Below are positions 2-13,098 of a stretch of DNA of 64,000 nt, piece by piece. The translations under genes and the position numbers were made by a program. Position 1 is the stretch's first letter. The number at the start of each line of letters is the position of its first letter. The DNA is from Gluconobacter wancherniae NBRC 103581 (GTDB lineage: Bacteria; Pseudomonadota; Alphaproteobacteria; Acetobacterales; Acetobacteraceae), in the NCBI RefSeq assembly GCF_007988885.1, contig NZ_BJUZ01000003.1, positions 124,001 to 188,000 on the forward strand, written 5' to 3'. The notes below the pieces were generated by a model, which was not told where the DNA came from, did not search any database, and saw only the letters and a list, made by a program, of their open reading frames with translations.

Positions 2-757
2 GAAGCTGGCATATGGATTTTGCCTGCTCCGCTGATATTCCGGCATTCTCTTGAAGACCCGACCGAGGTTTTTGACACGATGCAGACGCCGGGCGCAAAG
101 ATCCGCCTGGGGGTCGCACATGGCTCTATCAGGGATTTCGGTGCTCAGGGTGATACGAAAAATCAGATCACGCCTGATCGGGCGAAAAGATCAAACCTCG
201 ATTATCTCGCGCTGGGCGACTGGCATGGAATGCTCAGGGTAGATGCCAGGACCTGGTATTCAGGCACACCAGAAACAGACCGTTTTCAACGTGATGCGCC
301 AGGACAGGCTCTGGTTGTTGAACTCAGATCAGGTGATGAGCCTGTTGTGACGCCTATCAGAACCGGGCGCTTCCAGTGGTTGAAGCGTGAGTGCACCATT
401 CATGATCAAGCCTCGTTTGAGGCTGATCTCAGGCAATTGCTTGAGGATATAAATTCGTCCGATACGCTTTTGGATCTGACACTGGATGGTATTGTTAGTC
501 TTGGTGAGCGCGTCTCTATTTTGCGGATGTTGGAAAATGATCTCAGACATCGCCTGCGCTATCTGGAAGTAAATGCTGACAATTTGATCGCGCAGCCAAG
601 TGCAGATGACCTCGATGAGCTGGCGCATGAAGGCATTCTGGGCGCGGCAGCTGCACAGCTCAAAGCCTTGAGCGAGGCTCAAGGTCCGGAAGCCATCACA
701 GCGCGTCGTGCGCTTGAGAGACTGTTTATCGAATATAACCGTGAGGAGCGGACATGA
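2..757 (+). CDS. SbcD/YhaO-like metallophosphoesterase, 5' end outside window
   Basis: The reading frame is open from the first bases of the window, so this is the C-terminal part of a longer protein; a TTG at position 20 is internal and not a credible start. The visible part carries GVAHGS and LALGDWHG, which match the late metal-binding motifs of calcineurin-like phosphoesterases (histidines ligating the di-metal centre), followed by a long helical C-terminal part. In the SbcCD/Mre11-Rad50 class the phosphoesterase is the nuclease that trims DNA ends under control of an ABC-type ATPase. The next gene is such an ATPase and overlaps this one by an ATGA, which supports translational coupling and a two-subunit complex. 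The N-terminal metal motifs cannot be seen, so nuclease activity is inferred from family and context. Confidence 0.85.
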   Translation, partial: EAGIWILPAPLIFRHSLEDPTEVFDTMQTPGAKIRLGVAHGSIRDFGAQGDTKNQITPDRAKRSNLDYLALGDWHGMLRVDARTWYSGTPETDRFQRDAPGQALVVELRSGDEPVVTPIRTGRFQWLKRECTIHDQASFEADLRQLLEDINSSDTLLDLTLDGIVSLGERVSILRMLENDLRHRLRYLEVNADNLIAQPSADDLDELAHEGILGAAAAQLKALSEAQGPEAITARRALERLFIEYNREERT

Positions 758-3414
758 GTTTTGCCATCCGCAAGGTCAGGCTCGAGCAGTTTCGTAAATT
801 CCGGGCACCTTTGACGCTGGATGGTCTGGGCTCAGGCCTCAATATTATTATTGAACCCAACGAAACTGGTAAATCGACTCTTCTGGAAGCGTTGCGGGCA
901 GCATTTTTCGTCCGCCACAATACACGCAACCAACTGGCCCAGTCATTTGCGCCTTATGGTGAGGCTGTTGGCCCGGAAATCACGGTCGCATTCGAAGTTG
1001 ATGGTGATGAGTGGAGCGTTCAGAAGCGCTTTCTCAGAGGTCCGTCGATCGCTGTTACAGGTCCTGCTGGGCGTAGTCAGGGAGATGAGGCTGAGGTCCG
1101 GCTGAATGATCTGTTTGGTGCAGTAAGAGATACCAGCCGGAACGGAGACATCGCGAATTACGGCCCTCTTGGGCTGCTATGGGTTGCACAGACAGAAGCG
1201 CTTGCCGTTTCCGCTCCTGGCCATATCGTCCGTGCGACGGTGACATCTGCGCTTGAGACAGAAGTGGGCTCTATTCTGGGTGGAGAAGCCTACCAGAAAG
1301 TCAGGGACAGAGTGGACATTCAGTATCAGAAATACTGGAGCCCAAGTGGTCAGAAGCGGGAATTGCAGAAAGCTGCACAGGAGCAGAGCGACAGGGCCGC
1401 AGAACATTTACGCGAAGTGAGTGAGCGACTTGTTGTTCTGGAAAGAACATTTTCAGAGCGCGATAATCTCCAGCTTCGCCTGAAAGTTCTCCAGCGTGAA
1501 CTGCAGGATGAGACCGATCAGGTGGAACGGGAAAATCTCCTCCAATCTCTCGAAATTGCACGCGCTGCAGGACAAATTCTAAAGACCCGGCAAGCTGAAC
1601 AGGATACTGCAAAGGCGAAATTGCAAAGCCTGGAAGATCTGAAGGTACGTCATCAGAAAGCTGTTCAGGCGCGTGATAAAGCGACGCTTTCCGTCGACGA
1701 TATTAAAGCTCGGCGCTCCAGAACAACGGAAGCTTTGATTGCCGCCAGAGAAAAATCGATTGAGGCCCGAAACGCTCTGGATCTTGCCAGGAAAACTTGG
1801 CAGGAGGCACGGCACAGGCTTGAAACTGCTCAAACAGCCTTGCTTCAAAATCAAAGACAGGCAGCGATAAAGCTTGCCCGACAACGTTTTGAAGACATGC
1901 TGGTTTTGGAAGAGAAATCTCAGAACGCTACGGCACTTGTAGCATTGAAAATTCCATCTGCTCAGATGGCTGTGCTCGAAGCCTGTGAGCAGGAAAAAAT
2001 GAAAGCGCAGGCTGTCGTAAATGCAGGCGCAACGCGATTGGTTTTTCGAGGAAACGCTGGCGATATTTTACTGGATGGTATGCCAGTTCTTACCGATGAT
2101 CTGGCACTGACACGGGAAACAATACTTCGGTTCGGGAGTGCTGAAGTATTGATCAGCCCGTCCAAAGCGACATTGAGTGCTGATGAGCAATTTTTGATGG
2201 CAACCCGTAAACAGAAGGCATTGCTGGACGAACTTGGGGTAGCAGATATTGATGCTGCACGGGCACGAAATGAGAATGCCCATGAAGCGGCTGCGACATT
2301 GCGGGTTCTGACGGCACAGATGGAGGCTTTAGCGCCTGCAGATGAGCGCATAGACCTTGCAAGTGGAAAAGACGCGCTCCGGTTATTCATATCGACGCTG
2401 GGAAAAAATGAGTCGCTGCCAGTAGTAGAAATTCCTGATATCGCGCTACTGCAACGCGAATGCGAAGAGACCGAAATCGCTGTTTCCAGAGCCGAAGGAG
2501 CGCAGAACAGCGCGATCGAAGTGCAACGCGATCTCGAATTACGGGATACTCCTCTGGCTGTTAGCGAAGCCCAGTCTGTCAGCGAACTCGGTAGCGCCAC
2601 TGCCGAAATTAATAACATTGAGGAGCGCTCCGAATGGAAGGGGCTTGAAGTTAGCCTTGAGCAGGCAAAGCAACAGGCTGTGCACGCCAGTGTTCTGCTG
2701 TCAGATGCGGAGAAAAACGCTTCTGTGTATGATGCCCTTACCATTAATAAAAAAATTGAAACTCTGGATTCACGCAGGAAAACTGCCCTTGATTCCCGAA
2801 ACCAGCTCGAAAAAGAAATAGCTCGCCTAGAAGGCATTATTCAAAGCGAAGGTGGTCTTGGTCTGGCGGATCAGAAAATTGCTGCGGACGAAGAGCTGGC
2901 GCGAGCACGGGCGACACAAACGCGCGTGCAGCAGGATGCAGATACATATAAACTGCTTCGCGAAACTCTGGAAAATGCGCGCCGAGAAACGGCTTCAAAA
3001 TTTGTCAGTCCCGTCACCCGGCGGGCCAAGCGATATATCGATCGGCTACTTCCTGATTGTGATCTGACATTTTCAGATGATCTGGGGCTGACAGGCATTA
3101 AAAGAAACGAAACCGAAGAAATATGTGGAAACCTGTCGCGCGGAACGCAGGAACAACTTGCGGTTCTGACCCGAATTGCGTTTGCGGAGCTTCTACTCGA
3201 GCAGGGAAAGCCCGTTTCTTTGATCCTGGATGATCCTTTTGTTTATTCAGATGATGCTCGTTTGGATACGATGATCGAGATCCTGACAGAGGTTTCTGAA
3301 AAAATGCAGGTGATTGTCCTGACTTGCCGAGATCGGGCGTTTCGTCATCTGACAGATGCCCGGCTCGTTATGTCCGATGAGTTTAATAATGGCCTGATGG
3401 AGCAGAGTATCTAG
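754..3414 (+). CDS. SbcC/YhaN-like ATPase of DNA repair, large coiled-coil protein
   Basis: 886 residues with the Rad50/SbcC plan. The N-terminal Walker A is EPNETGKST at residues 34-42. A long region of roughly residues 200-770 is rich in heptad-like Glu, Lys, Arg, Gln and Ala and should form coiled coils, broken by a less helical stretch around 400-470. The C-terminal half of the ATPase has the ABC signature LSRGTQEQ near 794-801 and a Walker B with ILDDPF near 824-829 followed by SDD. No CxxC zinc hook is visible in the middle, so it resembles the shorter YhaN type rather than classical SbcC. It overlaps the phosphoesterase by four bases. The likely role is ATP-driven control of the partner nuclease in end processing or repair. 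Codon use is more AT-rich than in the rfb genes. Confidence 0.85.
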   Translation: MSFAIRKVRLEQFRKFRAPLTLDGLGSGLNIIIEPNETGKSTLLEALRAAFFVRHNTRNQLAQSFAPYGEAVGPEITVAFEVDGDEWSVQKRFLRGPSIAVTGPAGRSQGDEAEVRLNDLFGAVRDTSRNGDIANYGPLGLLWVAQTEALAVSAPGHIVRATVTSALETEVGSILGGEAYQKVRDRVDIQYQKYWSPSGQKRELQKAAQEQSDRAAEHLREVSERLVVLERTFSERDNLQLRLKVLQRELQDETDQVERENLLQSLEIARAAGQILKTRQAEQDTAKAKLQSLEDLKVRHQKAVQARDKATLSVDDIKARRSRTTEALIAAREKSIEARNALDLARKTWQEARHRLETAQTALLQNQRQAAIKLARQRFEDMLVLEEKSQNATALVALKIPSAQMAVLEACEQEKMKAQAVVNAGATRLVFRGNAGDILLDGMPVLTDDLALTRETILRFGSAEVLISPSKATLSADEQFLMATRKQKALLDELGVADIDAARARNENAHEAAATLRVLTAQMEALAPADERIDLASGKDALRLFISTLGKNESLPVVEIPDIALLQRECEETEIAVSRAEGAQNSAIEVQRDLELRDTPLAVSEAQSVSELGSATAEINNIEERSEWKGLEVSLEQAKQQAVHASVLLSDAEKNASVYDALTINKKIETLDSRRKTALDSRNQLEKEIARLEGIIQSEGGLGLADQKIAADEELARARATQTRVQQDADTYKLLRETLENARRETASKFVSPVTRRAKRYIDRLLPDCDLTFSDDLGLTGIKRNETEEICGNLSRGTQEQLAVLTRIAFAELLLEQGKPVSLILDDPFVYSDDARLDTMIEILTEVSEKMQVIVLTCRDRAFRHLTDARLVMSDEFNNGLMEQSI

Positions 3415-3458: not shown

Positions 3459-4145
3459 TTATCCTTTGAAATCCGGTAATTCATTGACTGCCACTACCCG
3501 CCACATCCCATTGATGCGTTCGATAATCGAAATCGAAAGATTTTGGATCGTGAAACGCAAGGCCGTATCCGGGTGGACGCCAAGCGCGTGCGCCAGTGCC
3601 GCGCGGATCGCACCACCGTGACTTACGACGACCATGTCATGACCTTCATTGGCAGTCGCCAGTTCTTCGAGCGCATGAGACACCCGGGCACATACGTCCA
3701 GCATGCTCTCTCCACCTGGCGGAAGCTCACTCGCGCAAAGTGACCAGAAAGGGTGAGGAGGCAATTTCAGGCATGCCGAAAACTGCTCATGTGGCGTTCC
3801 GTGCCAGTCCCCAATTGATTGCTCAACAAAGCGGCCATCTGTTGAAATGTTATCCTGAAAATTCCCCGCCCGGCGAATTTCGGAAGCAGTATCCTTTGCT
3901 CTTTGGAGAGGTGAACTGAACCAGCGTGCGTCCTGCGGCAGGCGTCGCGCCAGCGCGGCGTAGCCTCCCTGTTGTTCTGCCATGGCGTCCCGGCAAAGAG
4001 GCACATCCAGTGCGCCATACATCGTCTTGCGCGCAGAGGCTTCCACCACGGCATGGCGGATTAACCAGAACCGCGTTATGCCTCGGGGAAGTTCGGGCGT
4101 GTCCAGGAAGTGCCCATGCGGGACCGCTTTGTTTTCACTGTTCAT
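3459..4145 (-). CDS. Histidine phosphatase family protein (phosphoglycerate mutase-like)
   Basis: About 228 residues from the ATG at 4145, which reduces overlap with the upstream gene to a few bases; the frame is open further to 4190. The N-terminal catalytic motif is LIRHAVVEA, with the phospho-accepting histidine after the arginine, and the second half has VVSHGGAIRA with the second active-site histidine. This is the plan of the phosphoglycerate mutase/alpha-ribazole phosphatase branch. No cobalamin genes lie nearby, so alpha-ribazole phosphate is not supported as substrate. The start overlaps the end of the PLP protein gene by 11 bases, so the two are probably co-translated and may act on the same metabolite. 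Substrate unknown. Confidence 0.8.
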   Translation of the reverse strand: MNSENKAVPHGHFLDTPELPRGITRFWLIRHAVVEASARKTMYGALDVPLCRDAMAEQQGGYAALARRLPQDARWFSSPLQRAKDTASEIRRAGNFQDNISTDGRFVEQSIGDWHGTPHEQFSACLKLPPHPFWSLCASELPPGGESMLDVCARVSHALEELATANEGHDMVVVSHGGAIRAALAHALGVHPDTALRFTIQNLSISIIERINGMWRVVAVNELPDFKG

Positions 4146-6183
4146 GATAGGGTGCGTACCGGGGGGCGGGATTAACGTCCAGCAGGACATTCCAGTGTTT
4201 TCGGATGAGTTCCAGTTTTAGAAGAACCCGTTGTGCGTCTGTGCATTCCCGCTTGAGCCGACGCGCTTCATCAAGGCCTTCATGCGATGGTTCTCCTGAA
4301 ACCAGGCGCGCTCCGGCGCATAATCTCAAAGCTCCCGCATACCCATCCACGTCCGGGTGTGAAACGGGAACAGGCTGGCCCAGTACGCACATCAACGACG
4401 CTTCGCCTTCCTGTATCCATGGTGAGAGATCTGCATTCAGCCATTTGTGTAAGTGGCGGGCATCTTCCAGATTCAGCGGAGCACCTGGTCGATTTGGGTC
4501 CTGAACGAGGAAGGACAATATGGTTGGCACTGCATCCCAGAAACCATCATCCGGGCGAGCGGGCACTGGTAGCGGCGTTAGTGCGGGGGCATCATCAAGC
4601 ATTTTCCGTGCTTCGGTCATGAAGCAGTTCAATCGCCTGCGAATGATTGCGTCTGGTAGCACAAACAACGCATCCATCTCAGCAATTGCTGCATGCCACC
4701 GAAGTGCCAGCCCAATATTATGGCCTGGTTTGAAAGCCTGATCATCTGCGTGCTCTGGCCATTCATCACGGTGGCTGTAATTTCGCAGACCCTTTGGTAG
4801 TTTGTAATTCCCAATTGTCGCACACATGCTGTCGGGCAGAAGAATGGCTCCGCAAAATGGAGGGCCGGTGAAGAATTTTGAACCCGTCACCATGACCATG
4901 ATGCCGCTCTCAACCCATTCCGTCACTCTGTGTGGACTGAGGCGAGCCTGGCACGCATCCACGACAACGGTAATGTCTGAACCCAAAAGCAGACGCAGTT
5001 CATCTACGAGCGCCATACTCGGTGCGGCGATACCGGTCTTGGACTGGTCCAGACGATGAAGCAGGACATGTCGGCCCGCTGCAAATTCCTGCATTGCCAG
5101 AGATCGGCACTCTGCATCGATGTCTTCAACGGGACGAGCAGTGCCATCCGGATGACGGATGGCAACACCCAGAAGATGCACATCTTCGTCGAAACCTTCG
5201 ATCAGATCGCCTTTCCCGACAGTGCTGGCACAGGCGCTGTCTGTTGCGAAATGCCGTCCTCTGGCGGCAAGCGGAACGCCACTCCCCGTTTCATCGGGGG
5301 CAATCAGAATGTTGCTGATAGGTTTGGTGTTTTGCCCGGCAACGATTGCCAGAACTGCAAGCTCACAATCTGTTCCTGATGCGGAAAGAAGAACAGCGTT
5401 TTCGGATAAACCAAAATGCCGTCCGATCGCTTCACGAGCCGTCCTGACAAGTGCTTCCTGCGCTGTATCCGGGTCGTGGTCTGACAGTAATGTTGCCATC
5501 ATCCTGCGTCGTGCGGATTCTGCGCCCCCAAATCCACGCTCCGAGAGTGATGACGCTGTCGATGACCCAAAAGTGACTGCCCATGGACGCGGCCGGTGGG
5601 AGCAGGAATATCGATTAAGTCCTGTCACAGGATCAACGGACAGGCGAGAATCCCCACCACTGCTCATCAATGTTTCTGCGGGGGCAATAACAGGCCACAG
5701 ACCAGCCAGAACCGGTTGTAAACGTTCGGCATTCTGCGCTGTGAATGTAACTTCTACGGGGAGCAGGCCGGAAAGCTGAGGCCATGTCTGCAGAAGCGTT
5801 GCTGCGTCTGGCGCTGTCGTGGAAAACGAAGTCAGGAAGTCTGGAAGGGGAGGGGCGTCCGTTGTATCCAGGGCATGGAATAACGCCGCAACACGGGCAG
5901 CCGCAAAACTGGCTATTGCAGGGTGTACGCCACTTTCCAGCAGACGCATCAGTTCAATAGCATGACGAAGTATGGTGGGCGCCAGCTCCGGGCGCTCCAT
6001 ACACTGTCTACCCAGTTTAAGAGTGAACTTCATGCCGGGAAGAGGGCGAGTTGCTCCTTCTACCAGGCGGAAGGGGAGCGGAAGGGACATATCGAGCGCT
6101 GGCATAAGCCCGTCAGCGACAACCCTCAGATCAGGTCTTTCAAGCACCCTCGTCAGGGCATCGGTCAAAACATCGGCCAGCAC
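4135..6183 (-). CDS. Large PLP-dependent (class V aminotransferase-like) protein with N-terminal extension, function unknown
   Basis: 682 residues. From about residue 200 onward the protein reads as a fold-type I PLP enzyme: a phosphate-binding loop SASGTD at 267-272, an aspartate pair-like VVVDACQAR around 406-414 (D409 would contact the pyridine nitrogen), and a probable Schiff-base lysine K436 in VTGSKFFTGPPF. About 180-200 residues precede this, without clear motifs and mainly helical, and about 180 follow. Typical class V aminotransferases are near 400 residues, so the size is unusual. It is followed by an overlapping histidine phosphatase gene and diverges from the dTDP-rhamnose operon. 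I do not recognise a named family. Transaminase, desulfurase, lyase and decarboxylase chemistry all remain possible; only the PLP fold is well supported. Confidence 0.7.
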   Translation of the reverse strand: MLADVLTDALTRVLERPDLRVVADGLMPALDMSLPLPFRLVEGATRPLPGMKFTLKLGRQCMERPELAPTILRHAIELMRLLESGVHPAIASFAAARVAALFHALDTTDAPPLPDFLTSFSTTAPDAATLLQTWPQLSGLLPVEVTFTAQNAERLQPVLAGLWPVIAPAETLMSSGGDSRLSVDPVTGLNRYSCSHRPRPWAVTFGSSTASSLSERGFGGAESARRRMMATLLSDHDPDTAQEALVRTAREAIGRHFGLSENAVLLSASGTDCELAVLAIVAGQNTKPISNILIAPDETGSGVPLAARGRHFATDSACASTVGKGDLIEGFDEDVHLLGVAIRHPDGTARPVEDIDAECRSLAMQEFAAGRHVLLHRLDQSKTGIAAPSMALVDELRLLLGSDITVVVDACQARLSPHRVTEWVESGIMVMVTGSKFFTGPPFCGAILLPDSMCATIGNYKLPKGLRNYSHRDEWPEHADDQAFKPGHNIGLALRWHAAIAEMDALFVLPDAIIRRRLNCFMTEARKMLDDAPALTPLPVPARPDDGFWDAVPTILSFLVQDPNRPGAPLNLEDARHLHKWLNADLSPWIQEGEASLMCVLGQPVPVSHPDVDGYAGALRLCAGARLVSGEPSHEGLDEARRLKRECTDAQRVLLKLELIRKHWNVLLDVNPAPRYAPYHEQ

Positions 6184-6375
6184 ACTCTAGTTCCCTGTCC
6201 TTTTCGTGACGAAGACTGGGTAGCCTATCCATGGAAATGGTGCGAGAGGCTTGGACAATCTTCATATGATGAAACCTGTGTTAAAAATTTAGAATGGATT
6301 GCCCATATTTTCTAACGCTGTAAGAATGAAGTGGACAAATCTTCGGGGGTAACCCCGTCCATTATAGGGGTTCAG

Positions 6376-7431
6376 ATGCGTATCTTGCTGACAGGTGGCT
6401 GTGGCTTCATAGGCTCGGCTGTTGTGCGTCATCTTATCAGGAATACAAGTCATAGTGTCATTAACGTGGACTGCATGACTTATGCAGCCTCAGAAGAGAC
6501 CGTGTCTGAAGTTTCTGCGGACCCGCGTTACACGCATGTCCGGGCAAATATTGTCAATGGATCGGAGATGCAGAAGCTTTTTGATGAGCATCGCCCCGAA
6601 GCCGTCATGCATCTGGCAGCAGAAAGCCACGTTGACCGCTCGATTGATGGCCCTGGAATTTTTGTCCAGACCAACGTTGTTGGAACTTACTCCCTGCTTG
6701 AAGCCGCTCGGAAATACTGGAGCGCGCTCCCGGCCGAAGAACAGGCGGCTTTCCGCTTCCATCATATTTCTACAGATGAGGTATTCGGGCACCTTGAGCC
6801 TCAGGATCCTCCCTTCACGGAAACAACGCCATACGATCCGCGCAGCCCGTATTCAGCCTCCAAGGCGGCATCGGATCATCTGGTCCGCGCCTGGTATCAT
6901 ACCTATGGGCTTCCGACTTTCGTAACGAACACCACAAACAATTATGGCGTATGGCACTTCCCGGAGAAGCTCATACCGCTGGTCACGATCAACGCAATCG
7001 AAGGCCGCGAACTTCCCGTATACGGGAAAGGTGAAAACGTCCGTGACTGGCTTTTTGTCGAGGATCACGCTGAGGCACTCGTCCGTGCTGTTGAGATTGG
7101 CAAGCCCGGCGAAACATACGCGATTGGTGCACGCCAGCCGCGCACCAATCTTGATGTGGTCAAGACGATCTGTAAGGTTCTGGATGAGCTTCAGCCTGAT
7201 CCTGCTGGCCCGCGTGAGCGTCTGATCCGCTTTGTGACAGATCGCCCTGGCCATGATTTCCGCTATGAGATCGATCCGACGCACGCGGAAACCGAACTCG
7301 ACTGGAAAGCCAAGAACGACTTCGAAACCGGCATTCGCAAGACCGTTCAGTGGTATCTTGATAACCGCGCATGGTGGGAAGGTATCCGCTCCAAGCGTTA
7401 TACTGGCCAGAGACTGGGAACACGTTCATGA
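6376..7431 (+). CDS. rfbB: dTDP-glucose 4,6-dehydratase
   Basis: About 351 residues from the ATG at 6376, which has AGGGG at 6366-6370 as ribosome binding site; the open frame reaches back to a GTG at 6331 but the Rossmann start [14 protein letters not shown] argues for 6376. This is an extended short-chain dehydrogenase: the GGCGFIG NAD-binding loop is at the N-terminus, STDEVFG supplies the substrate-contacting TDE, and YSASKAASD holds the YxxxK catalytic pair. It converts dTDP-glucose to dTDP-4-keto-6-deoxyglucose, step two of dTDP-L-rhamnose synthesis. It is the first gene of the rfbBACD run and overlaps rfbA by ATGA. Confidence 0.95.
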
Positions 7432-8330
7432 GCACTGTCGAAACAAAGGCCATGAAGGGCATCATTCTTGCCGGTGGGTCGGGCACGCGCCTGTATCCCA
7501 TGACGCTTGCGGCGTCCAAGCAACTGCTGCCTGTCTACGACAAGCCTATGATCTACTACCCGCTCGCCACGCTTATGCTGGCGGGCATCCGGGAAATCAT
7601 GATCATTACCACCCCCCACGACATGGAGCAGTTCCAGCGTCTGCTTGGGGATGGTTCGCAGTTCGGGATAAAGTTCGAATATCGCGTCCAGCCTTCGCCT
7701 GACGGTTTGGCACAGGCCTTCCTGATCGCTGAAGACTGGCTTGAAAACTCTCCCTGCGCGCTGGCGCTTGGCGATAACCTCATTTTCGCAGATCATCTGG
7801 GTGTTCTGCTTCGTGCGGCTTCAAACCGTCCTCAGGGCGCTACGGTGTTTGCATATCAGGTCCGCGACCCCGAGCGTTATGGCGTCGTCACGTTTGATGA
7901 GAGTGGACGTGCTCTTGAAGTGGTTGAAAAGCCAACGGAGCCGAATTCAAACTGGGCGGTCACCGGTCTGTATTTCTATGACAGCCGCGTGGTCGAACTG
8001 GCCAAGAAGGTCAAACCCAGCCCGCGTGGTGAGTTGGAAATCACTGACCTGAACCGCATGTATCTTGAAGAAGGCACTCTGCATGTCGATCGTCTGGGTC
8101 GCGGTTGCGCTTGGCTGGACGCGGGGATGCCAGACAGCCTGATGCAGGCTGGTACGTTCGTGCAGACGATCCAGTCCCGTCAGGGTATGCTTGTCGGCTC
8201 TCCGGCAGAAGTTGCTTTTCGTATGGGCTTCATCACGGCGGATCAGCTCCGTGAGCATGCCAAGATGATGGGCAAGACCGAGCTTGGCCGGATGCTTAAA
8301 GAACTTGCAGACCACGCACACACGGTTTGA
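7428..8330 (+). CDS. rfbA: Glucose-1-phosphate thymidylyltransferase
   Basis: About 300 residues from the ATG at 7428, in an ATGA overlap with rfbB; the frame is open upstream to 7371 but that part lies inside rfbB. The nucleotidyltransferase signature [11 protein letters not shown] is at the N-terminus, and [18 protein letters not shown] and EVVEKP follow in the order of the RmlA family. It makes dTDP-glucose from dTTP and glucose-1-phosphate, the first committed step of dTDP-L-rhamnose synthesis, and is normally feedback-inhibited by dTDP-rhamnose. About 100 bases with a strong hairpin separate it from rfbC. Confidence 0.95.
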
Positions 8331-8374
8331 AGCCGGGCGCACTGGTGCCCACACGCCTGGCAATTGCCAGGGAA

Positions 8375-8411
8375 GCTTTCCAGATCAGGGGCAACCCCTG
8401 GCCTGGAAAGC
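8375..8411 (+). other. Two-tier hairpin between rfbA and rfbC
   Basis: GCTTTCCAG at 8375-8383 pairs with CTGGAAAGC at 8403-8411. Inside it CAGGGG at 8386-8391 pairs with CCCCTG at 8395-8400 around a three-base loop, with AT opposite GC as a small internal loop. No T run follows, so it is not a canonical terminator. In a transcript crossing rfbBACD it could stabilise or process the mRNA, or partially block transcription. Confidence 0.65.
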
Positions 8412-8434
8412 CCTAATTCTGAAAGGTTCTGAGC

Positions 8435-8998
8435 ATGAAGGTCGAACGTCTCGCGATTCCGGACGTCATTCTCGTCACGCCACCACGCTTCAGCGATAAT
8501 CGCGGGTTTTTCTCCGAGACTTACAATGCGACGCGCATGCATGATGCGGGCATCGAACTTCCGTTTGTGCAGGATAACCAGAGCCTTTCCCGCCAGAAGG
8601 GCGTGGTTCGTGGGCTGCATTGCCAGCTGGCACCTTATGAACAGGGCAAGCTTGTCCGTGTAACTCAGGGGGCCATCTGGGACGTGGCCGTTGATGCGCG
8701 CACTGGATCCCCAACTTATGGAAAGTGGGTCGCTGCTGAGCTTTCTGCAGAAAATTGGTCCCAACTCTGGGTACCGCCGGGCTTTCTGCATGGCTTCGTG
8801 ACGCTCGAAGAAGACACTGTCGTGCAGTACAAATGCACGTCTCTGTATGACAAAGCATCCGAGCGCGCGGTAATCTGGAACTGTCCGGAACTGAAGATTG
8901 ACTGGCCTGTTTCCGAAGCTGATGCCGTTCTGTCCGACAAGGACCTGATTGCCCCGCATTTCTCCGAAGCCAAGGGCTGGTTCCCGTACGAAAAGTGA
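8435..8998 (+). CDS. rfbC: dTDP-4-dehydrorhamnose 3,5-epimerase
   Basis: 187 residues, the usual length of RmlC cupin enzymes. VTPPRFSDNRGFFSETYN at the N-terminus, the GVVRGLHCQ segment with the catalytic histidine, and the late VPPGFLHGFVTL are all characteristic. It epimerises dTDP-4-keto-6-deoxyglucose at C3 and C5 to the L-lyxo ketosugar used by RfbD. It starts about 100 bases after rfbA, beyond the hairpin, and touches rfbD. Confidence 0.95.
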   Translation: MKVERLAIPDVILVTPPRFSDNRGFFSETYNATRMHDAGIELPFVQDNQSLSRQKGVVRGLHCQLAPYEQGKLVRVTQGAIWDVAVDARTGSPTYGKWVAAELSAENWSQLWVPPGFLHGFVTLEEDTVVQYKCTSLYDKASERAVIWNCPELKIDWPVSEADAVLSDKDLIAPHFSEAKGWFPYEK

Positions 8999-9006
8999 GC
9001 CCAGAC

Positions 9007-9897
9007 ATGTCCAGCACCGGTCCAGTTCTTGTAACAGGTGGAAGCGGCCAGCTTGCCACGTCTCTTGTTCATCTTGGTGGCACGCGGATTATCCGGATCG
9101 GTCGTCCGGAGTTTGATTTCGACCATCCGGAAACGATCTCTGCAGTTGTTGAGAAATACAGGCCCGCGGTCGTCGTCAATGCGGCTGCATGGACAGCAGT
9201 AGATCTGGCGGAAAATGAGCAGGATGGCGCGGACCGCGCCAATAATTCTGGCCCGGCAGCGTTGGCCGAAGCGACCGCCAAGGCAGGAATTCCGCTTATT
9301 CACGTATCGACCGATTACGTGTTTTCAGGCGATAAGGGAGCCCCTTACACAGAGGCTGACGAGACTACGCCACAAACGGTTTATGGTCGTACGAAAGCCG
9401 AGGGCGAGCTGGCCGTTCTGGCTGCCAATCCGAAGAGCATCGTCCTGCGGACATCATGGGTCTATTCGGCGCACGGCAAGAATTTCGTGAAGACGATGAT
9501 CAATGCGGGCGCGAAGAACCCGGCGCTGAAAGTTGTCGGAGATCAGTATGGAAATCCGACGAGTTCAGATGATCTGGCTGAAGCGATCCTTGCCATTATC
9601 GCCCTGATCGAGCGTGATGGCTGGAAGCAGGAATATGCTGGTATTTACCATGCCAGTGGCACAGGCGAGACAAGTTGGCACGGGCTTGCCGTAGCTGCGC
9701 TTGAAGAAGCGACGAAGCACGGGCAGGCCATGCCGGAAGTGAATGCAATCCGGACGGAAGATTGGCCGACACCGGCCAAGCGTCCGCAGGATTCACGTCT
9801 CGATTGCTCGAAATTGGAGCAGGTTTTTGGTGTTCGTCTGCCACAGTGGCGGGACAGTGTGGCCAAAACCGTGCATAGGCTCTTCCATACGGTCTGA
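9007..9897 (+). CDS. rfbD: dTDP-4-dehydrorhamnose reductase
   Basis: About 296 residues from ATG 9007; a GTG at 8995 that overlaps the rfbC stop as GTGA would add four residues and is an equally possible coupled start. The NAD(P)-binding loop is VTGGSGQLA, NAAAWTAVDLAE and VSTDYVFSGD follow, and YGRTKAEGE holds the YxxxK pair. It reduces dTDP-4-dehydrorhamnose to dTDP-L-rhamnose, the last step. A strong intrinsic terminator lies just behind it, so the rfbBACD transcript should end there. Confidence 0.95.
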   Translation: MSSTGPVLVTGGSGQLATSLVHLGGTRIIRIGRPEFDFDHPETISAVVEKYRPAVVVNAAAWTAVDLAENEQDGADRANNSGPAALAEATAKAGIPLIHVSTDYVFSGDKGAPYTEADETTPQTVYGRTKAEGELAVLAANPKSIVLRTSWVYSAHGKNFVKTMINAGAKNPALKVVGDQYGNPTSSDDLAEAILAIIALIERDGWKQEYAGIYHASGTGETSWHGLAVAALEEATKHGQAMPEVNAIRTEDWPTPAKRPQDSRLDCSKLEQVFGVRLPQWRDSVAKTVHRLFHTV

Positions 9898-9917
9898 GTT
9901 CCTGTTGTCCCTTCTGG

Positions 9918-9947
9918 GGCCGCTCTGGAAACAGAGCGGCCTTTTTT
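9918..9947 (+). terminator. Intrinsic terminator of rfbBACD
   Basis: GGCCGCTCTG at 9918-9927, loop GAAA, and CAGAGCGGCC at 9932-9941 form a perfect 10-bp stem followed by six T at 9942-9947. It lies 20 bases after the rfbD stop. The following glycosyltransferase gene therefore needs its own promoter or read-through. Confidence 0.92.
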
Positions 9948-9977
9948 CTTTCTCATGGATGCTTCATCGTTTCTGAC

Positions 9978-10994
9978 GTGACACAGAATGATCCACTTCT
10001 CCCCGCCCCTTCACCACGCCGCTGGCAGCCTCGCATGATTCATGGGAGCGCGACCCGTCACTCTGAGGCATTGGGGGATCACGTTGCCATTCTGCTTTCA
10101 CTGCACAATGGAGAACGATGGCTGAACAGTCAGCTCGACAGTTTTCTGGCGCAGACACATACGCACTGGACTCTGTACTGGCGGGACGACGACTCTACGG
10201 ATTCAAGTCGCGCTATTATGCTGTCTTTCGCAGCTCATCGCGGAAACGGACGTTGCGTCGAGATTGATGACACATGCGTCAGCCTTGGCGTGCGGGAGTC
10301 TTACGCTCTGTTGGTTGATGCATCACCGTCAGATTCCATGATTGCTTTTTCTGATCAGGATGACGTCTGGCATCCGCAGAAATTGGAATGGGCGCTGGCA
10401 AAGCTGCGCATGGTTCCTGATGGCACGCCTGGGCTTTACTGCGCGCGTCAGTGGCTTACGGATGCGGATCTAAACGTTATCGGGGAATCTGCCAGACTGC
10501 GCCACCAACCAGATTTTGCCTCTGGACTGACACAAAATCTGGCAACCGGCCATACGGTGTTGCTGAACCGGGATGCGGCAAGGTTGCTGCGCGGGTTTCC
10601 GCCTCCAGAAGGTGTTCTGCACGACTGGTGGGCGTATCTGGTCGTTCTTGGAGCAGGTGGGGCATTCCTGTTCGATCAACGTTGCGTCAGTCATTACCGT
10701 CAGCACAGCCGCAATGCTGTTGGCGCGCAGCGTTCGTTCTTTAAACGTGGCGTGAATGCTCTTCGCCGCGGACCGCAGACGTTCATGCGTAGCTTTTATG
10801 CCTGTGTGAACACCCTGCTTTCGCGCCCTGCCACGCTTGCTCCAACTGCGCAGGCATTGCTTGAGGATATAGAGCGCGCCAAGACACGCAGGGAGCGGTT
10901 GAGCCTGCTACGACGCTACCCGGAGCTTCATCGTCAGAACCGCATGGAAACAGCGGTCTTCAGGATATGGTACCTCGCAAGCCTATCGACCTGA
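9978..10994 (+). CDS. Family 2 glycosyltransferase, probably rhamnosyltransferase-like
   Basis: 338 residues from a GTG at 9978; an ATG about 19 codons later is an alternative because the first residues are Pro-rich and unlike the family. The GT-A fold begins at VAILLSLHNGERWLNSQL, continues with RDDDST for nucleotide binding and has SDQDDVWHP as the DxD region. The SDQDDVW form is common in rhamnosyl- and related transferases of O-antigen clusters. Placement directly after the dTDP-rhamnose genes suggests that dTDP-rhamnose is the donor, but donor and acceptor are inferences. The protein has no clear membrane segment. The rfb terminator separates it from rfbD. Confidence 0.82.
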   Translation: MTQNDPLLPAPSPRRWQPRMIHGSATRHSEALGDHVAILLSLHNGERWLNSQLDSFLAQTHTHWTLYWRDDDSTDSSRAIMLSFAAHRGNGRCVEIDDTCVSLGVRESYALLVDASPSDSMIAFSDQDDVWHPQKLEWALAKLRMVPDGTPGLYCARQWLTDADLNVIGESARLRHQPDFASGLTQNLATGHTVLLNRDAARLLRGFPPPEGVLHDWWAYLVVLGAGGAFLFDQRCVSHYRQHSRNAVGAQRSFFKRGVNALRRGPQTFMRSFYACVNTLLSRPATLAPTAQALLEDIERAKTRRERLSLLRRYPELHRQNRMETAVFRIWYLASLST

Positions 10995-11000
10995 TGTGGG

Positions 11001-11447
11001 TCAGGTCGGACCGATGCCAAGAAAAGTACGCATGGCTGCGATGAAAGGACCATCTAAATCCATGCTGAAGGGACGCGCCGTAGCGTAGTCATAGACCGTG
11101 CAGGCTGGTCTGGTGCGGCAGTTTTCCGGCTCATTCAGATATCTTGGAACGAGATGGGTGTGGAGTGATGGCTCCTGATTGGCCCATGTCTCGTAATTGA
11201 TGCGCGCAGCGCCCGTTACGGCAAGGAGGGCGTCGCCCGCTTTTGCCATGTCCTCCAGATATTGGGCCCGTTCGGCGCCTTCGAGGTCGTTGAGGGTCGC
11301 TACAACAGGATCTGCGAGCAACTGGCAATATCCGTGAAGGGGCTGTGTCTCGCCTATCAGGAGCCATCCAGACAGCATTTTGCCGATAACGTATGGGTTG
11401 CTGCCAGCACGGGCGGCAGCAACCTTGCGTTCGATGATGTTGCCCAT
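11001..11447 (-). CDS. HIT-like domain protein (nucleotide hydrolase/transferase family)
   Basis: 148 residues. The histidine triad region reads SLHTHLVPR: the middle and last histidines of the HxHxH motif are present, while the first is serine. The family nucleophile is the middle histidine, so activity is plausible. HIT proteins act on phosphate anhydrides or phosphoramidates of nucleotides such as Ap4A or AMP-lysine. It lies 32 bases downstream of the MFS transporter gene on the same strand, so the two may be co-transcribed, with no obvious functional link. Substrate unknown. Confidence 0.75.
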   Translation of the reverse strand: MGNIIERKVAAARAGSNPYVIGKMLSGWLLIGETQPLHGYCQLLADPVVATLNDLEGAERAQYLEDMAKAGDALLAVTGAARINYETWANQEPSLHTHLVPRYLNEPENCRTRPACTVYDYATARPFSMDLDGPFIAAMRTFLGIGPT

Positions 11448-11478
11448 GAGGCGTCCCCTTCAAAAAAGGAGAAGCGTA

Positions 11479-12963
11479 TCATGCGGCTTCTTCAACGTCC
11501 TCATCATCGTCAGATGCAATCCGGGTATTACCCCGTGTCGGACGGAAACGCTTCTCCAGTAGTGCTACTTCGATATCTTCCAGAGAGGCCCCGGATGTTT
11601 CAGGCACAAAGAAGAACACAAAAATGACCGACGCTAAATTAACACCGGCATAGAACCACATGGTCCAGTTCAGGCCGATGGCTTCGGCCATGGTCAGCGC
11701 TGTGCTCGTGACCAAAAGGTCGGCGCCCCAGAGCGTTGCAGCGTGTAGCGATGTGGCCTGTCCGCGCATGGAGAGCGGAAACATCTCTGCCCCGAGAAGC
11801 CAGCCACAGACCTGAATGCCTCCTGAGTTGAACGCCATGAAGGACAGCAGGAATACGACCACAAGATAGGACCCAGCGCTTCCCGGTGCCGGATGGATCA
11901 TGAACATAATGCCAAGGCACAGCAGCGAAAGTACAGATCCTGGCCCCATGATCAGCATCAGGCGACGACGGCCAATCCGGTCCACGAACATGCAGCCGAG
12001 AAAGGTCATGACGCAATAAACGGCAGCGACGCCCAGCGAGGCGAGAAGTGCGGAAGATGCCCCGAAGCCTGCGTCATTCAGGAAGGTCGGAGCGTAGTAA
12101 ATCATCATTTCCAGGCCGCCACACTGGGTGAAAAACGCTACACCTAGCGCCGCCACGAGTGCCGGGCGTACCCATGGCTGGAACAAGCCACGCCAGCCGC
12201 GGTTATGCTCTTCGACGTTCAGAGCATTTTCGCGAATTGCCTCCACTTCCTTGCGCACGGCTCTTTTGGTCGTGCGGATACGGCCGAGATGAATGATGGC
12301 ATTGCGCATGCCTTCATTTTCAGCAGACCAGCGCGGGCTCTTGGGCATAAAGAACATGGAAATGAAAACAATCGCAGCAGGAATGGCCGCAATTCCGACC
12401 ATCGGTCGCCAACCCCAGCTTTCTCGCTGCGTGAAGCCGATGATGTTCGCAATCAGGATGCCAAGCCCGATCGCCACGTTGAACATCGTGACAAGGCTGC
12501 CACGACGTTCCTGGGGCGCCAGCTCAGAAATATACATCGGCACCACCTGTGTGGAACCACCAACAGCCAGACCAAGAACAAGTCTTGCTACGATCAGGGT
12601 CCAGACATTTGGCGAAAACGCACAGGAGGTCGCTCCTATTACGAAAACAGCGCTGACGACGCACGTGGTTGCGCGGCGACCATACTTCTCGGAGAGGGAC
12701 CCGGCAATGAAAGCGCCGCAAACTGCACCCAGAAGGATTGCCGAGGCAACCATCTCTTTCATTGTCGAATTCAGATGAAAATCATCACCGATCAAAGGGA
12801 GTGTGCCGGATATGATACCGGTATCATATCCATAAAGACCACCGCAGATGGCCGCGACTATGGCAGCCAGAAGCAGGACCAGTTTCGCGTTTGGCGAAAC
12901 CTCGATCTGCATCGGGTCATTATACTCACGTTTTTTTCGAGGCGTTTTCGTATCATTTGACAT
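11479..12963 (-). CDS. Sugar porter family MFS transporter
   Basis: About 494 residues from the ATG at 12963; the frame is open to 13305 but the extra 114 residues have no signal or membrane character. Twelve membrane segments are expected, starting with an Ala/Leu/Ile-rich helix that ends in GGLYGYDTGIISG, the hallmark of sugar/H+ symporters of the XylE/GalP type. The intracellular GRR motif KYGRRATT after helix 2, PMYISELAP, PKSPRW and VPETSGASLEDIE near the end all fit. The sugar is not predictable. The C-terminus is an acidic tail, SDDDEDVEEAA. Confidence 0.88.
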   Translation of the reverse strand: MSNDTKTPRKKREYNDPMQIEVSPNAKLVLLLAAIVAAICGGLYGYDTGIISGTLPLIGDDFHLNSTMKEMVASAILLGAVCGAFIAGSLSEKYGRRATTCVVSAVFVIGATSCAFSPNVWTLIVARLVLGLAVGGSTQVVPMYISELAPQERRGSLVTMFNVAIGLGILIANIIGFTQRESWGWRPMVGIAAIPAAIVFISMFFMPKSPRWSAENEGMRNAIIHLGRIRTTKRAVRKEVEAIRENALNVEEHNRGWRGLFQPWVRPALVAALGVAFFTQCGGLEMMIYYAPTFLNDAGFGASSALLASLGVAAVYCVMTFLGCMFVDRIGRRRLMLIMGPGSVLSLLCLGIMFMIHPAPGSAGSYLVVVFLLSFMAFNSGGIQVCGWLLGAEMFPLSMRGQATSLHAATLWGADLLVTSTALTMAEAIGLNWTMWFYAGVNLASVIFVFFFVPETSGASLEDIEVALLEKRFRPTRGNTRIASDDDEDVEEAA

Positions 12964-13098
12964 AGTGATACTAACATGGCGCAAATCTAAAAGTTCTGTC
13001 AGAAATAATCCATCAGGCGCATAAAATTGATTAAATGGCTTTATTTTCTGCCATATCAGGCTTGAGGACAGGCATTCTGGTTGCCAGAGGGGAAAATC

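Follow-up and report, generated by a model that had tools for sequence, protein, structure and literature searches.

A predicted class V-type pyridoxal phosphate enzyme from Gluconobacter wancherniae belongs to a family linked to amide ligases and a PF00282 decarboxylase

A gene for a 682-residue pyridoxal 5'-phosphate (PLP) enzyme was analyzed in a 64,000-nucleotide stretch of the 2.78-Mb genome of Gluconobacter wancherniae NBRC 103581, a member of the Acetobacteraceae (contig NZ_BJUZ01000003.1, positions 124,001 to 188,000; this whole stretch is here called the window). Its sequence places the protein among the class V-type (fold type I) PLP enzymes, in a family for which Pfam has no model; this is a new family inside a known superfamily. 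The more lasting partners of the gene are an amide ligase and a decarboxylase of family PF00282 rather than the histidine phosphatase whose gene it overlaps in the window. On balance, the enzyme is likely to carry out one step of a decarboxylase/amide-ligase pathway.

A PLP enzyme family without a Pfam model

The gene and the parts of its product that are discussed below are located in the window as follows.

4135..6183, minus strand: PLP enzyme, 682 amino acids (aa) from a GTG start without an internal stop; hhalign gives a class V core; unmatched in Pfam, NCBIfam, and PHROGs
5665..6183, minus strand: N-terminal extension, about residues 1 to 173; own profile; conserved in the Acetobacteraceae
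5368..5379, minus strand: SGTD, residues 269 to 272, PLP phosphate loop by alignment; G270 and T271 in 63/63 members, D272 in 56/63
5287..5289, minus strand: Thr299; T in 57, V in 3, and S in 3 of 63 members; aligned SufS/NifS column His in 16/17
5038..5040, minus strand: Lys382; K in 63/63; aligned SufS/NifS column Asn in 16/17
4957..4959, minus strand: Asp409, partner of the PLP pyridine N by alignment; 63/63; aligned column Asp in 17/17
4876..4878, minus strand: Lys436, PLP Schiff base by alignment; 62/62 complete rows; aligned column Lys in 17/17

No model of Pfam, NCBIfam, or PHROGs matched the window protein, no PF00266 match at E values up to 1 was found in any of 43 members of its family, and none of the six members scanned against NCBIfam matched a model. 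Searches of the PDB by sequence and by profile gave best E values of 0.28 and 0.76, respectively, and viral contigs yielded no usable relatives. Among GTDB contigs there was a single Microvirga stretch with 29% identity to query residues 324 to 449, which the family hidden Markov model did not confirm; this sequence (L002) was left out of the member count. The initial annotation had described an unassigned PLP enzyme with a large N-terminal extension, nearly 300 residues longer than usual. The first part is confirmed, no catalogued family having matched, and the second is a fair description, the SufS of the same genome being 403 aa long.

The family alignment (43 rows, hand-picked from the retrieved members) was compared by hhalign with 17 distinct SufS/NifS-type sequences and aligned with them over 270 columns (probability, 95.3%; P value, 2.3e-8), with K436, D409, and Q412 on the Schiff-base Lys and the Asp and Gln cofactor residues of SufS. 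The score of 74.0 compares with at most 24.1 in 30 column-shuffled controls. A first comparison set of 20 rows, which included three repeats of the same genes, had given 73.9 against controls of at most 20.9 (30 shuffles, except for one 1-column artefact at 128.9), and the result was unchanged when the comparison was redone with the 17 distinct sequences. The class V-like core that had been proposed from the SGTD loop, D409, and K436 is thereby borne out, with all three at the places first given for them. A relationship of the PLP enzyme to PF00282 was rejected on the same kind of comparison (score, 23.4; best of 30 shuffles, 24.6).

Conservation was counted over 63 members, with L126, which is cut at a contig end, left out of the K436 count and of the tree. 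Residues D178, R180, N190, Y192, T209, A210, G270, T271, G300, K382, D409, Q412, and R414 are invariant, and R495 and R620 are kept, like K436, in all 62 complete rows; the loss of D409 or K436 that had been named as a possible refutation was seen in no relative. R620 lies in a C-terminal LR motif, and we take it to be like the carboxylate Arg of cysteine desulfurases. The dense set of invariant Arg and Lys residues (R180, K382, R414, R495, and R620) suggests a substrate that may carry more than one anionic group.

With SufS, IscS, and NifS (PF00266, class V) the family thus shares the homologous core of 270 profile columns, D409, Q412, K436, and the SGT loop; it differs from them in matching neither Pfam nor NCBIfam models, in its own GGDxR...NxY head, preceded in the window protein by the 173-aa extension, and at the cofactor. 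In class V enzymes a His stands beside PLP and an Asn contacts O3'. Both are replaced throughout the PLP family, by Thr, Val, or Ser at position 299 and by Lys at position 382, residues that are placed beside the cofactor by the alignment. The conserved C-terminal catalytic Cys of cysteine desulfurases was not found among the 63 members. Cys-rich columns (at least 20 Cys, residue 170 onward) are 194, 273, 359, 411, 444, 599, and 622; the sole near-invariant Cys is C411 (61/63), inside a DACQ motif, and the C-terminal column 622 is Cys in 31 of the 63.

The extension is large, as first stated, but is shorter than the approximately 190 residues given for it: the family core begins at about residue 174, with GGDxR, which leaves about 173 residues. 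Its profile scores 146 to 220 bits in all 24 loci in which the PLP gene adjoins the phosphatase gene, 12 of which built the profile, and the domain fades in deeper members of the family. Among 28 loci outside the Acetobacteraceae it was recognized in L115 (E value, 3e-5) and marginally in L114 (0.04) and L110 (0.6), with no others. No relation of the extension to the class V set was found by hhalign, and a relation to the ATP-grasp partner proteins described below was rejected (E value, 0.35).

Distribution and partners of the PLP gene

The PLP gene was found in 20 of 26 genomes of the host genus plus one further genome, G033 (21 of 60 searched), in 41 of 150 genomes of the host's taxonomic family, in 6 of 385 genomes of the class, and in 25 of the 398 genomes sampled from the phylum; the samples are not disjoint, and the window's own genome is among them. 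Forty of the 41 matching genomes of the Acetobacteraceae lie outside the genus, and neighborhoods were read for 22 (G033, G369, and 20 more). Of 72,556 plasmid records, 33 had a match; all are rhizobial, and none covers 80% of the query. The unrooted tree of the PLP proteins has a deep split with a Shimodaira-Hasegawa-like approximate likelihood ratio test (SH-aLRT) value of 96.

At the 28 loci read outside the Acetobacteraceae, with distance (4 kb) and bit-score limits of our own choosing, one subfamily of PF00282 decarboxylases was encoded within 4 kb on the same strand in 19, and an ATP-grasp ligase or a nonribosomal peptide synthetase (NRPS) was encoded in 25. The ligases are of several kinds: a RimK-like ATP-grasp protein in 17 loci, a double ATP-grasp protein with acylphosphatase in 2 (L115 scanned, L114 by clustering), the D-Ala-D-Ala-ligase-C type in 3 (L116 and L117 scanned, L053 by clustering), ATPgrasp_ST in 1 (L110), and an NRPS in 2 (L028 scanned, L026 as annotated). 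The RimK-like assignment comes from weak agreeing matches (NCBIfam rimK_fam, 1.5e-5; Pfam Synapsin_C, 3.4e-4, in one of two members scanned), and profile searches of the PDB picked out a chain named RimK (9.5e-5) and D-Ala-D-Ala ligases (0.002). The partner decarboxylase matched PF00282 at 183 to 224 bits in the three cassette members scanned, and in L050 decarboxylase and ATP-grasp are fused as one protein. Such cassettes occur on both sides of the deep split in the PLP tree. That the same PLP family recurs beside ligases of unlike families is our main argument for a shared pathway.

Several of these loci have features of their own. In L115 (positions 4938 to 7772) the decarboxylase and PLP genes stand beside a gene for a protein of 944 aa that has ATP-grasp stretches and, at its C terminus, an acylphosphatase domain. 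In the Sinorhizobium plasmid loci L026 and L028 the NRPS gene overlaps the PLP gene by 4 bases and genes for ParB-N-like, nitroreductase, and phosphopantetheinyl transferase proteins come next; the L028 NRPS has three modules and an N-terminal formyltransferase domain. Decarboxylase/ATP-grasp/PLP cassettes lie inside flagellar clusters (FlgK, FlbT, flagellin [with DUF1522 in L113], and FliD) in L113 (3200 to 17639), L051, and L122. A protein of 258 to 277 aa without a Pfam or NCBIfam match, presumably glycosyltransferase-like from its appearance by eye, is encoded next to the PLP gene in such clusters (L113, positions 10715 to 11491; also L052 and L112).

A decarboxylase of the cassette subfamily (673 bits) is also encoded in the window's genome, on contig 1 and unlinked to the PLP gene. 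Within the genus, the decarboxylase was found in all 20 PLP-bearing genomes and not found in five of the six without the PLP gene (Fisher P value, 9e-5, relatedness ignored), so that presence of the two agrees in 25 of 26 genomes. Among 33 other genomes of the Acetobacteraceae, a decarboxylase of at least 600 bits was present in 20 of 21 with the PLP gene and in 2 of 12 without it (Fisher P value, 7e-6, again ignoring relatedness). The 600-bit cut-off was our choice; G780 (213 bits) and G029 and G035 (277 bits) were counted as without the decarboxylase, and some PLP-bearing genomes, such as G805, G809, and G843, were left out of the comparison.

In the window's genome (L156, positions 9102 to 13013) the decarboxylase gene has cobT on one side and a DUF1217 gene on the other, and beyond lies an ATP-grasp gene of the circularly permuted type (PF14403). 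A PF14403-type gene, 62% identical to that one, lies near the PLP gene in G832; this type of ATP-grasp is common, and the observation was not used as support. A cobalamin link of the decarboxylase, which stands beside cobS/cobT-type genes here and is convergent to one conserved neighbor cluster in 25 of 30 loci, was considered and taken as chance.

The preferred reading and its rivals

We propose that the PLP enzyme performs one amino-acid step alongside the PF00282 decarboxylase. The two PLP enzymes would make or modify an amino acid or amine, which the amide ligase would then join to a carboxylate, and the product would be a small amide or peptide-like molecule. That the PLP enzyme, decarboxylase, and ligase act in one pathway, and in this order, is what we infer from their linkage and co-occurrence.

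Several observations weigh against this proposal. In the host genus no clear ATP-grasp ligase of the cassette type came to light: of the 11 genomes searched from the 26 of the genus, 10 gave no RimK-like ATP-grasp protein and the window's own genome gave a single 77-position match (E value, 1e-3). At E values below 1e-40 such a protein occurs in 6 of 21 other PLP-bearing genomes of the Acetobacteraceae, never near the PLP gene. Neither a ligase nor a decarboxylase of these kinds was found near the PLP gene in L024 and L025 (L119 likewise has no ligase nearby, but it lies 112 bases from a contig end). In the f13 family, with three loci, a ligase is present and such a decarboxylase is not nearby; two of the genomes have no decarboxylase at E 1e-60 and one has a weaker match of 325 bits. 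When kinship was taken into account with the phosphatase tree, the co-occurrence of the PLP gene and decarboxylase came down to two to three independent pairs on supported branches, with none in the opposite direction (sign test P value, at least 0.25). The AlphaFold 2 single-sequence model of the window protein (predicted local distance difference test score, 38.7) was too poor to read, and by sequence the reaction may be a transamination, an elimination, or an epimerization.

The rivals draw on the genes that flank the PLP gene in the window.

3459..4145, minus strand: histidine phosphatase branch 1, 228 aa from the ATG at 4145; PF00300 (1.3e-43); 11-base overlap with the PLP gene
6379..7431, plus strand: rmlB/polA, divergent neighbor; TIGR01181 (451 bits); internal ATG chosen by eye as the start
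7371..10994, plus strand: rmlA, rmlC, rmlD, and a glycosyltransferase gene (polBCDE order); TIGR01207, TIGR01221, and TIGR01214 over cut-off; PF00535

The first of these genes had prompted the suggestion of a short pathway that acts on a phosphorylated amino compound; no named pathway could be tied to the pair, and our searches likewise gave none. The 11-base overlap stands when the second ATG (4145) is used as the phosphatase start; from its first ATG the reading frame spans 3459 to 4190, and some relatives have a frame that begins at the equivalent Met (in L036, for example, one of 228 aa). In 24 of the 63 loci, all in the Acetobacteraceae, the phosphatase gene lies directly beside the PLP gene on the same strand, with an overlap or a gap of at most 182 bases; in G017 neither gene was found. 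The proposed conservation of the pair holds within the family, in 31 of 42 PLP-bearing genomes with the neighborhood read (21/21 in the first set, 10/21 in a further set), but not outside it, where 0 of 28 loci have the adjacency; in the PLP tree the 24 adjacent loci all fall in a single clade of 25 rows. With an E value limit of 1e-20, the phosphatase was matched in 58 of the 62 genomes of the Acetobacteraceae searched (in two fragments in G816) and not found in G017, G034, G780, and G802, of which G802 and G780 are PLP bearing and 82 to 86% complete. In five congeners without the PLP gene, the phosphatase gene directly adjoins rmlB with no PLP gene between (some cluster labels in this comparison, such as parB and gidA, were assigned by eye). 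The PLP gene thus comes and goes where the phosphatase stays. The sixth such congener, G017 (assembly of approximately 180 contigs), has the decarboxylase. Like CobC and PspA (PF00300) the neighbor is a branch 1 histidine phosphatase; unlike them, it reaches 108.3 bits with its best NCBIfam model, ribazole_cobC (TIGR03162), under the equivalog cut-off of 162.9, and 56 bits with the PspA phosphoserine phosphatase model, a match that speaks for a phosphorylated amino compound, though far under the cut-off of 350. Its distribution and gene context led us to reject the phosphatase as a pathway partner. The gene probably belongs to the core set and is just a local neighbor at the same site; a joint pathway is improbable.

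We also consider it unlikely that the PLP enzyme provides the amino acid or amine with which a surface structure is substituted, either the polABCDE pellicle polysaccharide or flagellin. Consistent with flagellin are the cassettes in flagellar clusters (L051, L113, and L122, and by clustering L052 and L112) and the position of the decarboxylase gene after a DUF1217-cluster gene in 20 of 30 loci compared (DUF1217 itself shown for the window's genome), a domain with a flagellar tie. Consistent with the polysaccharide, rmlB stands next to the PLP gene in divergent orientation at 21 of the 35 loci from the same family, with a small open reading frame separating the two at three of these, and polABCDE of other acetic acid bacteria is tied to capsular pellicle polysaccharide in two reports (PMC5553594, PMC5050591). 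Against either structure, the five congeners without the PLP gene retain rml genes and a polE-type gene, many loci lie near neither pol nor flagellar genes, and the PLP-bearing genomes G033, G837, and G798 gave no flagellin match. Of 76 genomes, 69 gave a flagellin match; given these three exceptions, flagellar modification was rejected as the general role.

An amino-acid epimerase or racemase that feeds D-amino acids to the ligases seems less probable again. Isopenicillin N epimerase is a class V enzyme, three loci have D-Ala-D-Ala-ligase-C partners, and L025 has, directly upstream, genes annotated as D-alanine aminotransferase and D-aminopeptidase, whose products belong to the class IV aminotransferases and the S58 peptidases, respectively. 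Most partners, however, are RimK-like or NRPS proteins without known D-specificity, and the two changes of PLP contacts alone do not indicate racemization. Least probable of all is that the protein is simply a cysteine desulfurase or C-S lyase of the usual kind that carries an extension. Of the profiles compared, the SufS/NifS-type set alone beat the controls, and the DxxQ motif is common to both; yet the His and Asn of that set are replaced, no NCBIfam model matched the six members scanned, column 622 is Cys in only half of the family, and the near-invariant Cys lies in DACQ.

At the far side of the phosphatase gene (window positions 20 to 3414), an 886-aa SMC/AAA-type ATPase (SMC_N just under cut-off; AAA_27) is encoded directly after a 245-aa reading frame that looks metallophosphoesterase-like by eye and has no Pfam or NCBIfam match. 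The ATPase has no cluster partner among the other neighborhoods compared.

Related systems and significance

Among decarboxylases the partner belongs to group II (PF00282; systems compared were the 4obu chain and the aromatic amino-acid and L-2,4-diaminobutyrate decarboxylases). The copy of the window's genome is nearest to solved chain 4obu, and the partner falls far under the equivalog cut-offs of RhbB, PanP, and MfnA. A 2009 survey of ATP-grasp amidoligases by Iyer et al. may already describe the neighborhood. No description of a decarboxylase/ligase/PLP cassette turned up in the literature searched, in which coverage of subscription journals was thin. The phosphonoalamide pathway, compared by description only, resembles our proposal in that the amino acid formed by a PLP enzyme is taken up by ATP-grasp ligases for joining (PnaA, PnaB, and PnaC; PMC11867202). 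It differs in that PnaA is described as an aspartate-aminotransferase relative, and the available text mentions no PF00282 decarboxylase.

A bolder reading, which we offer tentatively and regard as doubtful, is that the family is a new PLP catalyst in which the non-His residue at the ring and the invariant Lys for the O3' Asn would give chemistry new to class V, within a proteobacterial decarboxylase-ligase-PLP pathway to an undescribed amide metabolite in several unrelated lineages.

Strictly conserved, set in an operon that repeats, and absent from Pfam, this PLP family offers a clear handle for assigning its reaction. The cassettes are small, with three genes, two of them fused in L050, and can be expressed whole, so that the product can be sought directly. 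The tempting pairing of PLP enzyme and phosphatase is corrected by the wider gene context. What emerges is a widespread PLP group, usually found beside an amide-bond-forming enzyme and often beside an amino-acid decarboxylase, a setting that points to a small-molecule pathway awaiting elucidation.

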